A stretch of 27,663 nucleotides of DNA. Origin: a virus. The stretch's first letter is position 1. Each line of letters opens with the position of its first letter. Below the pieces are notes generated by a model. The model saw nothing but the letters and a program-made list of their open reading frames with translations. It was not told where the DNA came from and made no database searches. The position numbers and the translations under genes were made by a program. The stretch is taken from positions 1 to 27,663 of IMG/VR virus record IMGVR_UViG_3300048835_000859. One strand, written 5' to 3'. Shown piece by piece: positions 8,500-26,891 of this stretch.

Positions 8500-8547
8500 T
8501 TCTTAGAGGGTTTCATGAAGGGCAACCCTCATGAAACCCTCTAAGAA
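8500..8547. terminator. Perfect 19-bp hairpin upstream of the connector gene
   Basis: Arms 8500-8518 and 8529-8547 are perfect 19-base reverse complements. The loop contains a further GGG/CCC pair past a single bulged A, leaving only CAA unpaired. No T-run follows on the plus strand. It lies 11 bases before the ATG of the next gene. It is more likely an attenuator, RNA-processing site or rho-assisted terminator than a simple intrinsic terminator. Confidence 0.65.
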
Positions 8548-19397: not shown

Positions 19398-20468
19398 ATG
19401 CTCGCTTTGCCCGGCCCTAGCTCGCCTCAATTCCCACAATTCCCCGCGCCGATTCCCCCAGTTTTAGAAAATGTGCCAACGCCAGCGTTACCGCGCAGCG
19501 GGAGTACTCCCGATCTGGTCGCGCTGCTTTTGGAAGACAAGCGCAGCCCCGACACCAAACGCGCCTACAAATCCGACCTCAATTTCTTTTTCGCTTTCGC
19601 GCAAAAAGACGTGCAAGAATTCATTTCGCAGACCACGCCGCAAATCGCGCTGGATTTGGCGCGCTTCAAAAACGCCATGCGGGAAAACGGTTTGGCCGAG
19701 GCGACGATCAACCGCCGTTTGGCTGCCGTGAAATCGCTGCTGAAATTCGCGCACCGCCTGGGCTTTTGCGAAACGGACGGGCGCGCTTTGGTGGACGGTG
19801 AAAAAATTCAGCACTACCGCGACACGCGCGGCATTGAACTCAAACAAATGCGGAAATTGGTGCAGGCGCCCGCAAAAAAGTTTGGAAATGGATTGCGCGC
19901 CGCGCGCGATACATCAATTTTGCTGCTGCTGTGCGAAAACGCGCTGCGCCGCGCCGAAGTCTGCAAGCTGAATGAAAGCGATTTTGATTACGCGCGGCGC
20001 GAACTTTCGATTCTGGGGAAAGGGCGAGGTTTGCAAAAAGAAAAAGTGACAGTGAGCGAAAACTTAGCCGCGTGTCTGTGTACTTATATAAATAAGAAAC
20101 ATAGTAAACACACTCTCCTAATGGAGAGTTTTTCAAATAGCGAAAAAAAATGTCACGATGTTGCAGACTTACCTTTGTTTGAAACGCTGGATCGAAGGCC
20201 GGAGTACTCCCGTTCGCGTTTGACGCCGGACGGACTTTATCAGCTTGTGCAGTTTTACGGCGCGCAGATCGGACTGAAGCGCCTCACGCCTCACCAGCTT
20301 CGCCACAGCGCGATAACCGCCGCACTCGATGCCACCAAAGGCGACGTGCGGAAAGTTCAGAAACTTTCGAGGCACGCGAAACTGGCGACGCTGCAAATTT
20401 ATGATGATTCGCGAGAAAATTTTCAGGGCGAGGTTAGCGGGCTGTTGTCGAAACTACTGATGAAATAA
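19398..20468 (+). CDS. int: Tyrosine recombinase (phage integrase type)
   Basis: The 356-residue protein has a SAM-like N-terminal core-binding domain at about 37-130 and a complete catalytic domain: R184 (NALRRAEV), K208 (LGKGRG), H299-x-x-R302 (TPHQLRHS), H326 and nucleophile Y335 (LQIYDD). It should catalyse integration and excision. No integron-integrase-specific patch is recognisable, so I read it as Xer/phage type. Two oddities stand out. The first 35 residues are proline-rich. Residues about 229-258 are an AT-rich insertion with codon use unlike the rest and a terminator-like hairpin. It converges on the cassette array, whose truncated end lies 63 bases past its stop. Confidence 0.92.
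   Translation: MLALPGPSSPQFPQFPAPIPPVLENVPTPALPRSGSTPDLVALLLEDKRSPDTKRAYKSDLNFFFAFAQKDVQEFISQTTPQIALDLARFKNAMRENGLAEATINRRLAAVKSLLKFAHRLGFCETDGRALVDGEKIQHYRDTRGIELKQMRKLVQAPAKKFGNGLRAARDTSILLLLCENALRRAEVCKLNESDFDYARRELSILGKGRGLQKEKVTVSENLAACLCTYINKKHSKHTLLMESFSNSEKKCHDVADLPLFETLDRRPEYSRSRLTPDGLYQLVQFYGAQIGLKRLTPHQLRHSAITAALDATKGDVRKVQKLSRHAKLATLQIYDDSRENFQGEVSGLLSKLLMK
20112..20133 (+). other. Terminator-like hairpin inside the integrase gene
   Basis: ACTCTCC-TAAT-GGAGAGT followed by TTTT lies within the AT-rich insertion of the integrase coding sequence. If active it would cut integrase messages short at about codon 240; it may also be a relic of inserted DNA. Confidence 0.45.
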
Positions 20469-20503: not shown

Positions 20504-20530
20504 CCCGTCAGAACGCGGAAATTAACTAAC

Positions 20531-20567
20531 GCGGTAGGCGGTCGGGTGCAGCGTTTTGTTGTGCGTA
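20531..20567 (-). other. attC7, truncated distal site
   Basis: Read leftward it has R'' (ACGCACAAC), the 5-base spacer and an intact L'' arm GCTGCACCCGACCGCC. The L' arm and spacer are missing; GTTAGTT follows at once, as if the central part had been deleted onto an R'-like core. It closes the array on the integrase side. Confidence 0.75.
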
Positions 20568-20842
20568 ATGTTTGATGCGTGAGGCCGGTTCCTCCCCGAC
20601 TGCTGTTATGTCCCCCGCTTTTTGCGCCCTCTGCCTCAGTTTCTCTGTCCCAAGTTTAATTCCCGATTTTCACGGTAGCGGCTCTCTCACCGCATCCACT
20701 TTTTGCGCTCACCTCATACGACAAACATCAAAGTGTCGGCAATCCGCTTTTCGTAGAAACAGCGTCAAAGTACTTCTGGTCGCTCGGCGCTATAGTGTGT
20801 CATATCACCACACCGCCCACGCATCGAACCTTTACGCATTAC
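20568..20842 (-). other. Cassette 7, no recognisable gene
   Basis: This cassette holds no leftward frame longer than about a dozen codons (one encodes MTHYSAERPEVL), and rightward frames look like chance. It may be a decayed gene, a non-coding RNA or a promoter-bearing cassette. With the neighbouring sites it makes up most of the roughly 490-base stretch without a gene between the integrase and cassette 6. Confidence 0.6.
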
Positions 20843-20937
20843 GCACAACGCCGAACTCACCCGCCGCCTGCCGCCGCATCGTTTTGCTCACCGGAGCATG
20901 GCTGCGGCAGGCGGTCGGGTGCAGTGGTTTGTTGTAT
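20843..20937 (-). other. attC6 recombination site
   Basis: Leftward: R'' ATACAAC, spacer AAACC, L'' ACTGCACCCGACCGCC; then L' GGCGGCGGGTGAGT, spacer TCGGC, R' GTTGTGC. The central stem is CCGCCTGCCGC/GCGGCAGGCGG. L'' has the two extra bases (G and A) that set orientation. Confidence 0.88.
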
Positions 20938-20962
20938 TGCTTGTTGGCTCGCTGTAATTTCG

Positions 20963-21160
20963 TCAATCATTGAACATGAACACCGATGAATCGTCGTCCT
21001 CGCGTGGGTCATGTTCTTGCCAGTCGGTTGCGGCTTTGTCCACACCCGACACGCGCTCATCCAGCGAAACCGGATGATTTTTCCAATATTTTACACCTTG
21101 CGACGTTCGATAAATTGCAGACCGAACGTGACACTTCTGTTTTGCATCTTCGTAAGTCAT
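20963..21160 (-). CDS. Cassette 6 gene: small acidic phage-type protein
   Basis: The start at 21160 is set by AAAGGAG six bases before the ATG. The 65-residue product (MTYEDAKQKCHVRSAIYR, then KYWKNHP, then DKAATDWQEHDPRED) ends in a strongly acidic tail. The layout, an opening Y/F-E-A helix, a V-R-S/R patch and a D..A.DW motif, recalls small phage proteins of the DUF2829 type, which includes Tad2-like anti-Thoeris proteins. The resemblance is remembered, not computed, and the protein is shorter than those; treat it as a lead. The stop lies 25 bases before attC6. Confidence 0.7.
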   Translation of the reverse strand: MTYEDAKQKCHVRSAIYRTSQGVKYWKNHPVSLDERVSGVDKAATDWQEHDPREDDDSSVFMFND

Positions 21161-21202
21161 TTGCTCTCCTTTGTTCCAGTTTCTGCAACGCCGCGCGCTG
21201 CA

Positions 21203-21285
21203 ATACAACGCCGAGTTCACCCGCCGCTGGAAGGGAGCGAGGAACGAGCGGACTGTAAGCGGTCGGGTGCAACGACTGGTTGTGC
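21203..21285 (-). other. attC5 recombination site
   Basis: Leftward: R'' GCACAAC, spacer CAGTC, L'' GTTGCACCCGACCGCT; L' AGCGGCGGGTGAAC, spacer TCGGC, R' GTTGTAT. The loop has the GCTCGTTCCTCGCTC segment shared with attC3 and, with changes, attC2 and attC1. The cassette 5 gene ends inside it. Confidence 0.9.
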
Positions 21286-21492
21286 CGCTGTTGGTTCGTA
21301 TCGCGCCCGGTCTGGAAGCTCTACGAAATCAGCGACTTTGCTTTGTGCGTCACTAAGCAAAACTACTGCTTCTGTCAGCAACGTGTGCGCGCCCATTTCC
21401 TCGACTGCCAGAAGTGCGGCGCGGATTGCGCTTTCTGCTGGCGTGTAGTGGTCTATACGACTACGACGCGGAAACCCATCAATCATTTGCAT
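21217..21492 (-). CDS. Cassette 5 gene: small helical phage-type protein
   Basis: Start 21492 has GGAG eight bases upstream (a second ATG lies at 21486). The 91-residue product has a predicted helical pair, HYTPAESAIRAALLAVEEMG then TLLTEAVVLLSDAQSKVADFVE. I recall this kind of sequence as a recurrent small hypothetical protein of phages, but its function is not known to me. The last 25 or so residues are encoded by the attC5 arms and stop at TGA in the L' arm GGGTGAAC, so the C-terminus is dictated by the recombination site. A helical-hairpin sponge-type protein is one possibility, not supported by any motif here. Confidence 0.7.
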   Translation of the reverse strand: MQMIDGFPRRSRIDHYTPAESAIRAALLAVEEMGAHTLLTEAVVLLSDAQSKVADFVELPDRARYEPTAAQPVVAPDRLQSARSSLPSSGG

Positions 21493-21518
21493 AAGTTTTC
21501 TCCAAGCCGCACGCTGCG

Positions 21519-21617
21519 GCACAACGCCAAACTCACCCGCCAACTACAGCCTCATTCCGCTTCGCCCTGATTTGAGCTGCGCGGCTGTAGTTGGTCGGGT
21601 GCAGTGATTTGTTAAGC
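21519..21617 (-). other. attC4 recombination site
   Basis: Leftward: R'' GCTTAAC, spacer AAATC, L'' ACTGCACCCGACC; L' GGCGGGTGAGT, spacer TTGGC, R' GTTGTGC. The inner stem is long (CCAACTACAGCC with GGCTGTAGTTGG). R'' is the closest here to the textbook RYYYAAC. Confidence 0.9.
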
Positions 21618-21629
21618 CGCCGTTGGGGA

Positions 21630-21848
21630 TTATCGGGTGAGGTAATTCCTTTCCTTGTGACATTTTACGCAGCGAGACATTTCATGTGTATTACGCTTGA
21701 GACAGTAATGGCAAACCCATGCCGGGCCACCAATGCGAACATCGTCCAATAATTTTTGTATTGAGATTGGTCGCTTTTCCAACTCCTTTTCTAACTCTTC
21801 GACACGCGCCTCTAACTGCTCGCGCGTCATTTCAGAAACATTTGACAT
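21630..21848 (-). CDS. Cassette 4 gene: coiled-coil zinc-ribbon protein
   Basis: The 72-residue product starts with a heptad helix (MTREQLEARVEELEKELEKR, about 7-26) and ends in a zinc ribbon with CHYC and CVKC pairs 16 residues apart. A DNA- or protein-binding adaptor is plausible. The start at 21848 is set by AAGGAG; that ribosome binding site is itself part of a GAGTACTC copy of the dispersed palindrome (AAGGAGTACTC then ATG), so the repeat supplies the translation signal. The stop lies 12 bases before attC4. Confidence 0.75.
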   Translation of the reverse strand: MSNVSEMTREQLEARVEELEKELEKRPISIQKLLDDVRIGGPAWVCHYCLKRNTHEMSRCVKCHKERNYLTR

Positions 21849-21885
21849 GAGTACTCCTTGCACGCAACAAACGCCGCGCGCGGCG

Positions 21886-21971
21886 GCTTAACGTTGAGTT
21901 CACCCGCCAACGAAAGCAGAGCGAGGAACGAGCGGCGCTGTAGTTGGTCGCGGTGCAACGACTTGTTGTAA
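21886..21971 (-). other. attC3 recombination site
   Basis: Leftward: R'' TTACAAC, spacer AAGTC, L'' GTTGCACCGCGACC (an inserted G compared with the others); L' GGCGGGTGAAC, spacer TCAAC, R' GTTAAGC, which fits GTTRRRY exactly. Confidence 0.88.
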
Positions 21972-21976
21972 CGCTG

Positions 21977-22183
21977 TTAATCAGTTGCAAGTGCCATTTT
22001 CCACGCGGGGATGCCGGCTTGCAAGTTCTGAAAGCGCACCTCTTCCACGCCTTCACTTTGCCAACCGCACGCACAGCAAACACGCTGTTGTTGAGCCAAG
22101 CGAAACAAGCGCGGGTCAACGGGACGCGAGAGCAAGTTTAAGTCGAACGCTTCGGTTTTCTCATCGCAAATCGGGCATTTCAT
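21977..22183 (-). CDS. Cassette 3 gene: zinc-ribbon protein
   Basis: The 68-residue product has CPIC at residues 3-6 and CCACGW near residues 36-41, a four-cysteine zinc ribbon like those of small phage regulators and of YgiT-type proteins. Here no toxin partner or HTH accompanies it. Start 22183 is preferred because AAGGA precedes it by seven bases; the upstream in-frame ATG would run through the cassette leader. The stop lies five bases from attC3. Confidence 0.75.
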   Translation of the reverse strand: MKCPICDEKTEAFDLNLLSRPVDPRLFRLAQQQRVCCACGWQSEGVEEVRFQNLQAGIPAWKMALATD

Positions 22184-22223
22184 ATGTTTTCCTTTTCGCG
22201 CTTCCATTGCGCCGCGCGCAGCG

Positions 22224-22300
22224 TTACAACGACCAGCTCACCCGCGCCCGGAGCGCGAGGAACGAGCGCGTAGGGCGTCGGGTGCAGCGTTTTGTTCAAC
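22224..22300 (-). other. attC2 recombination site
   Basis: Leftward: R'' GTTGAAC, spacer AAAAC, L'' GCTGCACCCGACGCC; L' GGCGCGGGTGAGC, spacer TGGTC, R' GTTGTAA. The shortest complete site here; the HTH gene of cassette 2 ends inside it. Confidence 0.88.
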
Positions 22301-22495
22301 CGCAACGCTGCTACGTTTCAGTTTAAGTACTCGCTCGACTTCCTTGAGCGCCAGAGGAAGGCAGCGCGGCGGAGTACTCCTGCCCGCGCGCCAATCCTCG
22401 AAAGTTCTCAAGCTGGTTTTGTTCAAGCGCCGCGCGGCCTCGACGTTTGATAATCCAAGTCGCGCCTGCCATTTCTTCAGTTCGTCAGCGGTCAT
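22238..22495 (-). CDS. Cassette 2 second gene: helix-turn-helix regulator
   Basis: The 85-residue product shows a Cro/C1-type HTH: LKKWQARLGLSNVEAARRLNKTSLRTFEDWRAGRS at about residues 6-40, followed by a helix (PLALKEVERVLKLKR). Such proteins are phage or toxin-antitoxin repressors. ATG 22495 has no good ribosome binding site; an in-frame TTG at 22522 is an alternative start, and GGAGATACGA upstream repeats the leader of the other gene of the cassette. The C-terminus runs into attC2 and stops at TGA of GGGTGAGC. It could bind the palindromic operator at 23120 in the same cassette; that is inference. Confidence 0.75.
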   Translation of the reverse strand: MTADELKKWQARLGLSNVEAARRLNKTSLRTFEDWRAGRSTPPRCLPLALKEVERVLKLKRSSVAVEQNAAPDALRARSSRSGRG

Positions 22496-22520
22496 GGTAA
22501 AATCTGAATGTCGTATCTCC

Positions 22521-22560
22521 AATCCCGCCGCGTGTTTTGAGGCACGCGGCGGGATTTTTT
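22521..22560 (+). terminator. Strong intrinsic terminator inside cassette 2
   Basis: Arms AATCCCGCCGCGTG (22521-22534) and CACGCGGCGGGATT (22543-22556) with an 8-base loop, then T's to 22560 on the plus strand. The T-run points rightward, so it stops antisense transcripts; leftward the stem lies just upstream of the HTH gene and could lower read-through without fully ending it. Confidence 0.85.
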
Positions 22561-22566
22561 GATTGA

Positions 22567-23055
22567 TTAGAGAACTTCGTTAATCAGAGCCGAAGACGAC
22601 CGAGCCGAGTTCAAGTAATATTCGACTTTGTTTTTGATGTGATCCATCAAGCCGCCTTTGATTCTCGAAGCCAACTCCAGAAATTCAAAATCAGTAGCTT
22701 CGGTAATTCGCGGGTCGTTGTGATTGAGTTGGAAATTGATTTCGTAGGCGCGCGTCAATTCTTTATCCGCGAACAGCGCGGCGTCGGCGTCCAGGTTGAA
22801 CAACTCAACTTTCACAGGATAGAAAACATAGTGGCGAATCCACATCGCCATGAACACCGTTGCTTCCTTGAGTTCCGGTGTAATTACGACACTTTCGCTA
22901 AACATCAAGTCGGCTTGAAAAGGCGCGTTTTCTTTGATGAATTGAATCGCGAATTTGGCTTTGGCTTGATTGGCCTGATCGTGTTGAGACACCCAGTCTC
23001 CAGATAAGTCAGTGTTCAAATTCAGTTGGTCAAAAATTGAGGTCTTCGTATTCAT
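22567..23055 (-). CDS. Cassette 2 first gene: 162-residue protein of unknown function
   Basis: Start 23055 is set by AGGAGATACGATG (SD six bases before ATG). The soluble 162-residue product has no recognised domain; visible features are a polar N-terminus (MNTKTSIFDQLNLN), a hydrophobic helix-like segment near residues 66-85 (EATVFMAMWIRHYVFYPVKVELF) and a Ser-rich end (NSARSSSALINEVL). Composition is clearly more AT-rich than the phage genes, which suggests separate ancestry. It has its own sigma70-type promoter with an operator in the spacer and a leader hairpin, so it is not dependent on upstream reading. Toxin or antidefence roles are speculation. Confidence 0.8.
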   Translation of the reverse strand: MNTKTSIFDQLNLNTDLSGDWVSQHDQANQAKAKFAIQFIKENAPFQADLMFSESVVITPELKEATVFMAMWIRHYVFYPVKVELFNLDADAALFADKELTRAYEINFQLNHNDPRITEATDFEFLELASRIKGGLMDHIKNKVEYYLNSARSSSALINEVL

Positions 23056-23067
23056 CGTATCTCCTGT

Positions 23068-23100
23068 GTGAGTAGCTTGGAATTTTTGAGGACTACTCAC
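23068..23100 (-). promoter_or_regulatory. Leader hairpin before the 162-residue gene
   Basis: GTGAGTAG (23068-23075) pairs with CTACTCAC (23093-23100). In the leftward message the stem sits immediately before AGGAG and could tune access to it. Confidence 0.5.
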
Positions 23101-23112
23101 TAACAAGGTACT

Positions 23113-23141
23113 ATTATAAACCACGATAATCGTGGTGGCAA
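23113..23141 (-). promoter_or_regulatory. Promoter with a 17-bp operator in its spacer
   Basis: Leftward TTGCCA (23141-23136), a 17-base spacer, and a perfect TATAAT (23118-23113). The palindrome ACCACGAT-A-ATCGTGGT (23120-23136) fills the spacer and touches the -35 box, an arrangement that would let a bound repressor block polymerase. Transcription would start near 23106, about 50 bases before the ATG of the 162-residue gene. Confidence 0.8.
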
Positions 23142-23200
23142 GGGGTTTTGAGAAATTTTTTATTTATTTTTTTGCGCCCCCCCCGAAACACTGATTTGCG

Positions 23201-23292
23201 GTTGAACGCCGAGTTCACCCGCCAACGGAAGCGCCAGAGTGAGGCACGAACGGCGGCGCTGTAGTTGGTCGCGGTGCAACGATTTGTTGTAT
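23201..23292 (-). other. attC1 recombination site
   Basis: Leftward: R'' ATACAAC, spacer AAATC, L'' GTTGCACCGCGACC (with the inserted G also seen in attC3); L' GGCGGGTGAAC, spacer TCGGC, R' GTTCAAC. Its arms share CCAACTACAGCGCCG with attC3, so the two may be recent relatives. Confidence 0.88.
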
Positions 23293-23302
23293 TGCAGTTG
23301 GC

Positions 23303-23494
23303 TCATTGCGCGGCCAGCTTTTGCTCAACTTCCGGCCATGACAGATATTGTGCTTGCGGCATCAAATCCCGAACCTGAGTGATTGAATAGGCATCGCCGT
23401 CACCAAACATATAATGCTCTTCGTCAGCATCCAAAACACCAAACTGAATGTCGCCTTTGCAGTGAAAATCCCTGACTAAAATAAATGGTTTCAT
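23303..23494 (-). CDS. Cassette 1 gene: small protein of unknown function
   Basis: Start 23494 is set by GGGAG six bases before the ATG. The 63-residue acidic product (MKPFILVRDFHCKGDIQFGVLD, then YMFGDGDAYSITQVRDLMPQ) looks like a small beta-alpha domain. No family was recognised. Its stop lies 10 bases from attC1. As the first cassette it is nearest to transcription coming from the phage replication operon. Confidence 0.7.
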   Translation of the reverse strand: MKPFILVRDFHCKGDIQFGVLDADEEHYMFGDGDAYSITQVRDLMPQAQYLSWPEVEQKLAAQ

Positions 23495-23520
23495 TTCAAC
23501 TCCCTGCAGCGCCGCGCGCT

Positions 23521-23545
23521 GCAATACAACAACTGATTAACCGAC
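23521..23545 (-). other. Solitary recombination core at the array start (attI-like position)
   Basis: GTTGTATTGC (23530-23521 leftward) is complementary to the end of cassette 1, so a recombination point exists here, but no L boxes or stem lie upstream (leftward GGTTAATCAGTT precedes it). A single core without a folded site is what an attI looks like, yet no known attI sequence was recognised. Confidence 0.6.
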
Positions 23546-23595: not shown

Positions 23596-23781
23596 TCACC
23601 GATGGCTCGACAAATGCCAGCCGTCACAGTACGGACAACAATAAATCCGCAGAACTTCCGGACGCTTACGCCGTCGCCGCAGCACTTGATTGCGCACCGT
23701 CTGGGCGTCTTTCTTGTGGGGGTAAACCACTTTTTCCCCACAGCGCGGCAACCGAACATCTGTAATCAAAATGGTTTGCAT
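23596..23781 (-). CDS. Small basic zinc-ribbon phage protein
   Basis: The 61-residue product ends in YCCPYCDGWHLSSHR, the C-P-x-C-x-G-W-H-L signature common in small phage zinc-ribbon proteins, after a basic stretch (RNQVLRRRRKRPEVLR). Start ATG 23781 is preferred; the longer frame upstream only translates the inverted-repeat region. It lies between the replication helicase and the cassette array and is the last leftward phage gene before the array core. A nucleic-acid-binding role is likely. Confidence 0.65.
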   Translation of the reverse strand: MQTILITDVRLPRCGEKVVYPHKKDAQTVRNQVLRRRRKRPEVLRIYCCPYCDGWHLSSHR

Positions 23782-23799
23782 GGTGATAATTGCAATCCC

Positions 23800-23902
23800 G
23801 ACCATGTTTGCAACTTTGCAAACTTTGCAACTTGTTTTTGCGTTTTGCGTTTTTGCAAACATGGTTTCATTTTGCAAAGTTTGCAAAGTTGCAAACATGG
23901 TC
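23800..23902. repeat. 31-bp perfect inverted repeat with TTTGCAAA-type iterons
   Basis: Arms 23800-23830 and 23872-23902 are perfect reverse complements. Each arm holds overlapping units such as TTTGCAA and ACTTTGCAA, and the 41-base loop has another TTTTTGCAAACATGG. The region is AT-rich in a GC-rich genome and ends on the helicase stop codon. Repeats like this next to a replicative helicase gene are typical of origins, but a large operator or terminator hairpin is also possible. Confidence 0.85.
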
Positions 23903-25479
23903 TAAAATCGCGGTGCCTCCTTCAGTTCCCAGAACCAGCGCCCCGCCGCGCCCGGCTCTTTGTAGCGATTGACGCCCATATTTTTAGAGGCGGTTTCGAG
24001 CGTACGGCGTGAGCAGATTTTTTCGCTCTGCGCCTGATCGAGTAGATCGGTTGAGAGGCGCGGCCCGTTTCGCAGCTCCTCGCGCAGCCAGTTCGCCGCG
24101 CGGTCGGCGGGTTTGAGGTTGGGTGCCGCTTCGCTGATGTCGCCCCACGCCGGGCCGAAGTCGGTTGTCTGATAGCCGATGGCATCACGCGCGCTTCCGA
24201 AATTCACTTTCACGGACATAAAGCCGTGCAGAAGCGGTTCGTTTTTATTGGGCGTGCCGACGCCGATGATGGAGCGTGGATACTGTGTGATGGCCGATGC
24301 GCCGCGAATCATATCCAGCGTAATCGGCCAGTCGGGAAAACCGGCGGGCAGTTTGTTGAGGTGGTGAATGCAAACGACCGCGATGTTAAATTCAGCGGCG
24401 AGTTCCGACAAGCGCAACATCACGAATTTCATGCAGTCGTTGGAATTTTCATCGCCCGAATGCGCGGCGGCGAGCGAATCAACAACGACAATCGGCGGGC
24501 GATGATCGCGCACGGCCTGGACGATCCACGCCCAGTCGCGGTCGTTATCCACGCGCAGCGCGTCGGCTTCGTTGCCTTTGGCGAACACGAAATGCCCGCG
24601 CGGAAATTCCCACTCGTGCAGGCGCTGGCGAAAAATGCCCAACCCGCTTTCCGTGTCAATCCACAAAAGGCGCATCGGGCGCTCTTCTTCGGTTTCAAAC
24701 GGGTCTTCGATTTCGGCCTGCTGACCGTCCGGCCAATCGGCGTCGAGAATAATACGTTTACAAATATCCATCACGACGGTGGATTTCCCGACGCCCGGAC
24801 GCCCGACCACCAATGTTAGCAGGCCGCGCGGAATCCAATCCGGCCACAGCCATGTGATGTCGTCGAAAACCGTGTCCAGATCGCAGTCAGTGGAGTACTC
24901 CTGCCGTGCGCGGGAATTGATCTCGCGCGCTTTGAGCGCTTCCATTTTCGCGGTGTAATGTTTGAGCGATTCCGAAACGTCTTCATCAGTCGAAGACAAA
25001 ACGGCTTGAAAAATTTCGGTTTCGCGCAGCGCTTGCCGCGCGATGGATTTCTGCAAAACGACGTGCGCGTAGCTTTCGATGTTGAGCGCCGAAGAACACT
25101 GCCCGATGCAGGCCGTCAAATACGGCGCGCCGCCGACTTCTTCATAATCGCCGCGCGCGCGCAGCTCGGCGACAACGGTCGTAAGATCAATCGCTGCTTT
25201 TTTGTCGAAAAGCGAAACGATTGCGGCAAAGATTTTTTGATGAGGGACGCGATAAAAGTCGCTGCTTTCCAAAAGTGCGGTTGCTTTGGGAATGACGCTG
25301 CTTTGCATCAGCATCGCGCCCAGCGCGCTTTGTTCCGATTCCAAACTTTGCGGCGTGACGCGCTCGCGCGGTTGCGGGCGCGTGGGAAATTCCGTGACGT
25401 TGCCGCCACGCCGTGAGTTTTGGGAGTACTCCCGGCGCGGCTTGTCGGTTTGGCGATAAAAAGCGGTTTGTGCGGCCAT
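23902..25479 (-). CDS. Replicative helicase: DnaB-type N-domain with RepA-like ATPase
   Basis: The start at 25479 is chosen because its ATG shares a base with the stop of the upstream gene (TAATG). The 525-residue protein has a DnaB N-terminal domain at about 43-150 (PQSLESEQSALGAML, then GGAPYLTACI), a linker, and a RecA-fold ATPase with Walker A GRPGVGKST (about 226-234) and Walker B IVVVDSLAAAHSGDEN (about 330-345). The ATPase part resembles RepA/AAA_25 helicases rather than the DnaB C-domain. The last 70 residues may be a winged helix (LSTDLLDQAQSEKICSRRTLE). It should unwind phage DNA at the fork. Two repeat copies lie inside the gene. Confidence 0.88.
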   Translation of the reverse strand: MAAQTAFYRQTDKPRREYSQNSRRGGNVTEFPTRPQPRERVTPQSLESEQSALGAMLMQSSVIPKATALLESSDFYRVPHQKIFAAIVSLFDKKAAIDLTTVVAELRARGDYEEVGGAPYLTACIGQCSSALNIESYAHVVLQKSIARQALRETEIFQAVLSSTDEDVSESLKHYTAKMEALKAREINSRARQEYSTDCDLDTVFDDITWLWPDWIPRGLLTLVVGRPGVGKSTVVMDICKRIILDADWPDGQQAEIEDPFETEEERPMRLLWIDTESGLGIFRQRLHEWEFPRGHFVFAKGNEADALRVDNDRDWAWIVQAVRDHRPPIVVVDSLAAAHSGDENSNDCMKFVMLRLSELAAEFNIAVVCIHHLNKLPAGFPDWPITLDMIRGASAITQYPRSIIGVGTPNKNEPLLHGFMSVKVNFGSARDAIGYQTTDFGPAWGDISEAAPNLKPADRAANWLREELRNGPRLSTDLLDQAQSEKICSRRTLETASKNMGVNRYKEPGAAGRWFWELKEAPRF

Positions 25480-26891
25480 TAAGCAGCACCGCCTTCGCTT
25501 GCTTTTTCCCACGTCAAAAACCCGCCTTCAATCGCGTTAATCAACAAATCGCACTGCAATTTGGAAAGCTGCTTGCGCGATTGGATAGGCCGAAAATGCG
25601 GGCTTGCCATGTGTCGGTTAATCGCCGCAATCATGGTTTCGCGTTCGGTGCTAAACCCGGCTTTTTGCGCGGCGATGAGGAGCGCGGCCAGATGCTTTGA
25701 TTCGCTTTCGGCGCGATGCTGGTTTGCGTTGGGGCACGTCGAAAAGTGCGAAGTGCCGTCGGGATTGGCGGGCATTTTCTTGCCGTTTTTGGTTTGGATC
25801 CAAAACACATCGGCGTCGCATGAGCGGCATTTCGCGCGCGGCGTGCCGCCCGGAATTTCAAAGACTAAGGCGCCTTGTGGCGGAGCGGGCAAAACACCTT
25901 GATAATCACCATCGGTAACTTCGCCGTAAAAAGGGATTTCGTCATCAACAATTTCGCCTTCTGAAAATTCATCGCTATCGCGCGCTACCGCGTTTTGAAA
26001 ATCAGCGTCCAAATCGTCATCGCTGTTTTCGTATTCATCGGCGAGCTGGGCAACGCGCGCCGCTTTGGTTTTCTGGAATGAATCGGCGGCGTTGGCGGTT
26101 GTGGTTGCGGGCTGATGAATTGTTGGCGGTGTTGTGGGAATGCTTTCGCGGTTCAAGGCTTGTTGCGCTTCTACTTTTTCGCGCGTCTTGCGAATCCAAA
26201 CCGCGAGTTCACCGGCGGCCATGTTTTCGCGCGCTTCGCACGGAACTTTCAAACCGAGTTCACCGCACGTTTTTCGGAGCGCGTTGTATTCTTCGATTTG
26301 CTCGCTTGTCGCGCGCGGTTCCTCGATGACGGGCGGCGGTGCTTGCGGCAGCGCACGGGGAGTACTCCCGGTGCGCGCGCCGTGAATGGTTTCGATTTCA
26401 GTTTCATCCAGCATTCCCATTCCGCAGTGCGAGAGAACCGCGCGCCGAAATGCTTTGGTGACGGCTTTCATCATGGCGTTAGCCATCGCATCGCCGCCGC
26501 CGGTTGCCGACACCACGCCGATGTTATCGGTATGACGCCCGTCCGGGCCAATCACACGGGCGCGCACGCGATACAGATTGTTGGCGAAATTTTCATCCAC
26601 AATTTCAGTCGAGAGTTTGCGTTTTTCGCAAAGCTGTTCGGTGCAGGTTTTGGTGGCATACAAAACTTCTTTTCCCGAAAGCCGCAGATAATCAAACGGC
26701 TTGGTGACTGGATCAAGCCCCGCCGCTTCGCAGCGCATTTGATACCACTGGACTTTTTGCGGTGGCGACAGTTGGGATAAATCGCCGTTCAAAATCAGCG
26801 ACTCCAAAACAGCGGCGTCGTGCGCCGCCGGATGCGCCAGCACGTTATTTTGTGAGGGCGCGGTTTCGCGTTGGGTTAAAGCTGTACTCAT
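25479..26891 (-). CDS. Probable single-strand annealing protein with C-terminal zinc finger
   Basis: This 470-residue protein has GGAG eight bases before its ATG. Residues about 30-165 (QWYQMRCEAAGLDP.TKPFDYL, ending NAMMKAVTKAFRRAVLSHCGMGMLDETEIE) match a domain common in phage recombination operons, probably of RecT/Red-beta-like annealing function. The middle is acidic and low complexity. Near residue 355 a CRSCDADVFWIQTKNGKKMP segment and a later TCP suggest a zinc finger. It is translationally coupled to the helicase. A 26-base near-perfect palindrome around an AGTACT core occurs at 26351-26376. Confidence 0.65.
   Translation of the reverse strand: MSTALTQRETAPSQNNVLAHPAAHDAAVLESLILNGDLSQLSPPQKVQWYQMRCEAAGLDPVTKPFDYLRLSGKEVLYATKTCTEQLCEKRKLSTEIVDENFANNLYRVRARVIGPDGRHTDNIGVVSATGGGDAMANAMMKAVTKAFRRAVLSHCGMGMLDETEIETIHGARTGSTPRALPQAPPPVIEEPRATSEQIEEYNALRKTCGELGLKVPCEARENMAAGELAVWIRKTREKVEAQQALNRESIPTTPPTIHQPATTTANAADSFQKTKAARVAQLADEYENSDDDLDADFQNAVARDSDEFSEGEIVDDEIPFYGEVTDGDYQGVLPAPPQGALVFEIPGGTPRAKCRSCDADVFWIQTKNGKKMPANPDGTSHFSTCPNANQHRAESESKHLAALLIAAQKAGFSTERETMIAAINRHMASPHFRPIQSRKQLSKLQCDLLINAIEGGFLTWEKASEGGAA

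Follow-up and report, generated by a model that had tools for sequence, protein, structure and literature searches.

The 103-bp element at positions 23800-23902 of the window, the IMG/VR contig of 27,663 bases that was analyzed here over its whole length, probably forms the iteron part of a phage replication origin, and the adjacent helicase would bind it through its C-terminal domain. We give this reading a probability of about 0.7. Many distant relatives of the helicase carry differently spelled repeats in the corresponding place, which suggests that the helicase recognizes its own start site for DNA copying. An initial annotation had proposed the element as a candidate origin; the iteron-type reading beside the helicase gene gained support from the comparison with relatives, and GC skew added little to it. 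For uncultured phages, the replication origin is hardly ever known. If the reading is right, a simple rule for finding such origins would be to inspect the region immediately behind a helicase with a winged helix at its end. It would also provide a modular helicase/iteron pair, the specificity of which is open to study by domain exchange.

Structure of the inverted-repeat element

The perfect inverted repeat described in the initial annotation was confirmed. Its arms, at 23800-23830 and 23872-23902, match at 31/31 pairs and enclose a loop of 41 nt. It is the longest perfect inverted repeat of the window, and no second copy of the element was found in the record. The longest inverted repeat obtained by chance was 16 in 200 Markov-1 randomizations of the whole window, and also 16 in 1000 randomizations of the 103 bp; the 31-bp repeat is far above the chance expectation. 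A search of IMG/VR with the palindrome itself returned four matches, all of them in unrelated contexts.

Each arm is a short tandem array that advances in steps of 8-9 bp and has TTTGCAA cores. The units of the element are of the TTTGCAAA type and measure 8-9 bp; TTTGCAAA occurs five times in the window, and four of these occurrences lie inside the element. The left arm, which would be the first iteron cluster (23800-23830), reads GACCATG TTTGCAAC TTTGCAAAC TTTGCAA with a tandem period of 8-9. It forms the perfect inverted repeat with the right arm, the putative second and opposed cluster (23872-23902), which reads TTGCAAAG TTTGCAAAG TTGCAAACATGGTC with a tandem period of 9. Between them lies a spacer at 23831-23871, a candidate melting site, with a third partial copy at 23844-23865. 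Partial repeat copies had been claimed for the loop, and we did find a third copy of ACCATGTTTGCAA there (23853-23865, minus strand), which gives rise to additional imperfect pairings. The AT-richness noted for the element was likewise borne out: the arms are 61% AT and the loop is 66% AT, compared with 43% AT in the window.

Genes surrounding the element

The record encodes a terminase and a major head protein on its plus strand, together with more late-type open reading frames (ORFs); the right end is occupied, on the minus strand, by replication and recombination genes. The gene that precedes the element on the minus strand (23902-25512) encodes a replicative helicase, the proposed initiator, as judged from Pfam, PHROG 19, PDB sequence matches to DnaB, AlphaFold and Foldseek. 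The protein comprises a DnaB N-terminal domain, a RecA-fold AAA_25 ATPase and a predicted C-terminal winged helix. Its AlphaFold model has a mean pLDDT of 81.7, and a Foldseek search with this model led to DnaB structures. The winged helix spans residues 468-530 (23923-24111, minus strand; model m903d1a4114de) and is the proposed iteron-binding domain; it is modeled as three helices (H468-480, H487-496, H502-512) and two strands (E515-518, E526-529), with a pLDDT of about 82-92 in this block. Pfam gave no name for the isolated C-terminal domain, and a DUF927 or D5 match to the helicase was not found.

The initial annotation rightly placed the repeat at the end of the helicase gene: the stop codon occupies 23902-23904, and the repeat begins on its last base. 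On the minus strand, the order is thus the helicase stop codon TAG (23904-23902), the element, about 18 nt, and an ATG at 23781. The next gene in the operon (23596-23781, minus strand) encodes a small zinc-ribbon-like protein that matches PHROG 15216. A longer ORF at 23596-23898 reads through the element, and only its residues 52-99 match PHROG 15216; the true start of the gene is probably the ATG ending at 23781.

A XerC-like tyrosine recombinase/integrase is encoded at 19398-20468; phage contigs and Chthonomonadaceae MAGs contain its closest relatives. For the helicase, a 44-51% relative was found in a genome of the Armatimonadota. Because the integrase is nearest to genes of Chthonomonadaceae MAGs and the helicase has this relative, the host is likely a member of the Armatimonadota. 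Of the window, two near-identical contigs, L007 and L008, span the left part only. The first of these is 99.98% identical over the overlap and, with its positions 1-710, extends the window 710 bp leftward. A 19-bp perfect inverted repeat lies between late genes at 8500-8547.

GC skew was also considered. The cumulative minimum falls at 23953, in line with an origin, but the curve is flat there and is confounded by gene orientation. Since the coding strands are C-rich in both directions, GC skew was set aside as evidence for an origin.

Opposed repeat units behind related helicases

Relatives of the helicase were fetched by protein similarity only. They were found with alignment queries, and single-protein queries with the helicase or the integrase gave no match. 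The nearest phage with a comparable replication region is G016, with an integrase identity of 51% and a helicase identity of about 45%. Behind its helicase (L052) stand 9-bp units, TTTGCGGAC/TTTACGGAG, in both orientations. As these units stood at the corresponding place, the regions behind the helicases of all relatives were inspected. Opposed clusters were present in L076-L083, where they are built from the unrelated units ACTATGAC, GGAAAAT, CATCTTCGA, CGAAGGGAGC, TTGCGCAAC and CGAAGGTGCTCA; the GACCATG...CATGGTC ends of the window element recur in L080. Arrays were also seen in relatives from Armatimonadota genomes and a cultured phage (L114, L116, L117, L121, L127). Among these, the perfect arms of L121 are 29 bp long and consist of TTTGCCACG units; in L127, from Microbacterium phage OneinaGillian, GGTGTGAC units stand behind the helicase. 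A comparable architecture was found behind the helicases of L145, L147, L150, L151, L159, L161 and L162.

Several of these loci show further features. The 9-bp units of G016 stand at both ends of the helicase gene (L052 9891-9958 and 11446-11510), in frame at the N-terminus (NSVKSANSVKSANS) and inverted behind the gene. L114 and L121 both belong to the Armatimonadota genome G022, which thus has two helicases of the family with a different iteron unit behind each. In L150 and L159, the opposed units lie inside longer near-perfect tandem repeats with a period of about 45-60 bp, as if the whole module had been amplified. Plasmid pCG2 (L129) has a large opposed ACATACA/TGTATGT array at about 2340-2620, directly behind an AAA family ATPase gene. 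As this plasmid is classed in a rolling-circle family (PMC4379921), its use as proof of plasmid-origin function was dropped. At the plasmid loci L130, L132, L133 and L135, the array score described below was not clearly reached.

Statistical evaluation of the arrays

An array score was computed for each locus as the maximum number of non-overlapping copies of one 7-mer, with both orientations present, in a stretch of 250 bp that begins 20 bp ahead of the helicase stop codon. At least four copies were taken as the threshold, and other windows of the same loci served as controls. In the first sample, 12/23 loci had at least four copies, as compared with 10/475 control windows (Mann-Whitney p = 2e-8); when the window itself was left out, the Fisher p-value was 2e-11. 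These first 23 loci had been partly inspected by eye before the score was fixed, and the unchanged rule was therefore applied to 16 further loci. In this held-out sample, the threshold was reached by 7/16 loci versus 14/358 controls (p = 5e-6). By eye, two of the seven (L144, L156) were not clean arrays, and L147, L151 and L152 appeared array-like yet fell below the threshold. In 12-13 of 26 loci, the longest perfect inverted repeat within 4 kb fell into the interval from -200 to +250 relative to the helicase stop codon, while 2.0 were expected.

Not all helicases of this kind are followed by an array. About half of the winged-helix loci fell below the array score, which counts against the origin reading. 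No array was found behind DnaB-type helicases without a C-terminal winged helix (0/6, P1 ban included); with n = 6, the contrast between helicases with and without the winged helix is modest (p = 0.03).

Association between repeat unit and winged helix

Four of the relatives allowed the repeat unit to be compared with the two parts of the protein. L082 and L083 have ATPase domains that are 94% identical and C-terminal domains that are about 40% identical, and their units differ (CGAAGGTGCTCA versus CGAAGGGAGC). L082 and L081, the ATPases of which are 63% identical and the C-terminal domains 61% identical, have the unit CGAAGGTGCTCA in common. Likewise, L079 and L083 have C-terminal domains that are 69% identical and a common unit, CGAAGGGAGC. 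Judged from these domain identities, the unit tracks the winged helix and not the ATPase. The comparison represents one natural domain swap in four sequences and is not a survey, a limit that counts against the origin reading.

Comparison with known origin systems

The closest parallels are found in the phage-inducible islands (SaPI/PICI). The Rep proteins of SaPIs, helicases of the DUF927 and D5/Primase_Cterm families, are reported to recognize iterons directly downstream of their own gene through their C-terminal domain (PMC7581432). In PICI origins, two iteron sets surround an AT-rich stretch immediately 3' of rep, and such origins drive plasmid replication (PMC6092414). The window element resembles them in several respects: it lies immediately 3' of the helicase and proposed initiator gene, it has two sets of short putative iterons around an AT-rich stretch (here 41 bp), and the iteron sequence differs between elements. 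Recognition by the helicase C-terminal domain would be a further parallel, the candidate domain being the predicted winged helix that the unit tracks in one natural swap among relatives. It differs in that the helicase combines a DnaB N-domain with a RecA-fold AAA_25 ATPase instead of belonging to the DUF927 or D5/Primase_Cterm families, that it is carried by a tailed phage, which has terminase and head genes of its own, rather than by a helper-dependent satellite, and that the clusters are strictly opposed and nearly palindromic. Thus, by helicase class and carrier the module is not a PICI, although it would work like one.

Lambda-type origins, with the iterons of the O protein, are similar in that iterons stand at the replication genes, beside an AT-rich stretch. 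In lambda, the initiator gene contains the iterons, and a separate protein serves as the helicase. In the window, by contrast, the repeats come after the stop codon of the helicase gene, and one protein would act as both initiator and helicase. The alpha protein of satellite phage P4 is a primase-helicase of another class, whose C-terminal DNA-binding domain recognizes octamer iterons, both direct and inverted; the unit in ori1 and crr is GGTGAACA, and two separated sites are needed. The proposed role of the window helicase resembles that of alpha, a helicase with a C-terminal DNA-binding domain for short iterons. The P4 type I iteron GGTGAACA was not found in 23800-23902. P4 has been compared with PICIs (PMC6092414). 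In SCCmec, the helicase Cch2 uses its C-terminal domain to bind repeats a short way downstream of its own gene, the arrangement that we propose here. Cch2 is of the D5 type and its binding is carried by direct AAGTG repeats, deletion of the inverted repeats being without effect; the origin is putative, and SCC replication in vivo was not shown (PMC7581432).

Proposed mechanism and scope

In the window, two opposed clusters flank an AT-rich spacer directly 3' of the gene of what would be their own initiator, the helicase itself. First, the C-terminal winged helix of the helicase would bind the units, a step that the comparison of relatives supports. By analogy with SaPI/PICI replication, two opposed sets of helicase subunits would then assemble on either side of the spacer, the spacer would melt, and helicase rings would load on opposite strands. 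The DnaB-like N-terminal domain would subsequently recruit primase. Binding, melting, helicase loading, primase recruitment and origin activity are thus steps that we infer.

The window may represent a large, unrecognized class of phage and mobile-element replicons, a generalization to which we give even odds. In this class, a single-chain initiator-helicase, comprising a RecA-fold ATPase, often a DnaB N-domain, and a C-terminal winged helix, would have its cognate opposed iterons directly behind its own gene, and unit and winged helix would change together and be exchangeable as a cassette. If true, the PICI-type layout would be a general design and not a hallmark of PICIs, and the origins of many uncultured phages could be read from the region that follows the helicase on its 3' side. 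In the open-access papers covered by the search, this layout was not found described for DnaB/AAA_25-type phage helicases, and novelty is provisional.

Alternative explanations

The alternative that survives best, itself unlikely, is that the repeats are regulatory iterons without origin function. A helicase or a repressor would bind them and control its own operon or the copy number, and replication would start elsewhere. Two findings agree with this and count against the origin reading: in G016, tandem units are also found at the 5' end of the helicase gene, a place that would suit an operator, and in pCG2 a module of this kind stands behind an AAA ATPase of this helicase family, though the plasmid is classed as rolling-circle. 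However, in nearly all array-bearing loci the array is found on the 3' side of the gene, away from its promoter, and the layout matches SaPI/PICI origins that were shown to drive plasmid replication (PMC6092414).

A second alternative, which we regard as improbable, is an RNA element. The 31-bp hairpin in the early-operon transcript would protect or process the mRNA or restrict downstream translation, similarly to intercistronic REP/BIME hairpins. The element does lie between two genes of the same direction, and its predicted RNA fold reaches -64.5 kcal/mol with a z-score of -10 (-4.2 for the G016 element), a stability that counts against the origin reading. Rfam gave only sub-threshold matches on the element, mostly of eukaryotic miRNA models to a long hairpin. 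Protein-binding sites fit better than an RNA function with arms that consist of tandem units, with the unevenly spaced opposed units of L114, L116, L117, L127 and L131, which form no clean hairpin, with a unit that co-varies with the DNA-binding domain of a protein, and with the absence of the element beside helicases that lack the winged helix.

It is more doubtful still that the element is a neutral or mobile repeat, either a tandem repeat that grew through slippage and template switching or an insertion of the MITE type, with no function. Similar-looking 9-bp repeats do occur as in-frame minisatellites in phage methylase genes, and no relative found is close enough to show conservation of this very copy. 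Against neutrality stand its single copy in the record and the strong positional enrichment of arrays behind one gene family in two samples. Moreover, 291 Armatimonadota genomes do not contain the 9-mer tandem as a dispersed repeat; two of them have an isolated 9-mer match. A host-wide short tandem repeat was also considered and rejected, since the 9-mers gave isolated matches only in 291 and 121 Armatimonadota genomes. The methylase minisatellites were observed in L086, L089 and L091-L093, where TTTGCAGAG nine-bp repeats of up to 21 copies run in frame (LQSLQ) through genes resembling DNA adenine methylases.

Finally, a hairpin after a gene and near the cassette array might be a transcription terminator or part of the neighboring integron-like recombination sites, but this can practically be dismissed: the stem is AT-rich and has no T-run, no terminator was predicted there in a scan, and the array repeats, which end about 250 bp away, belong to a different, GC-rich family. 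The element was rejected as an integron attC site on the same account of the repeats.

Neighboring cassette array

The array near the element, mentioned in the initial annotation, is real, and its near end is some 250 bp off. A link between the two is not supported, since the array is integron-like and has different repeats. Integrons and attC clusters are already known from phages (PMC9892861). The array in the window extends over about 20515-23540 and contains about six imperfectly palindromic repeats, which are spaced 316-977 bp apart and separate small ORFs on the minus strand. The repeats have GTTGT../..ACAAC ends and an extra base in one arm, and are foldable as single strands. A half-site near 23519-23540 resembles an attI/attC junction. 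The recombinase encoded at 19398-20468 stands at the far end of the array, is oriented towards it and has a weaker match to an integron integrase model; it may act on the cassettes or serve as the integrase of the phage. Phage G016 is without a cassette array. Inside the array of the window, a terminator-like stem of 16 pairs with a T-tail lies at 22521-22556.
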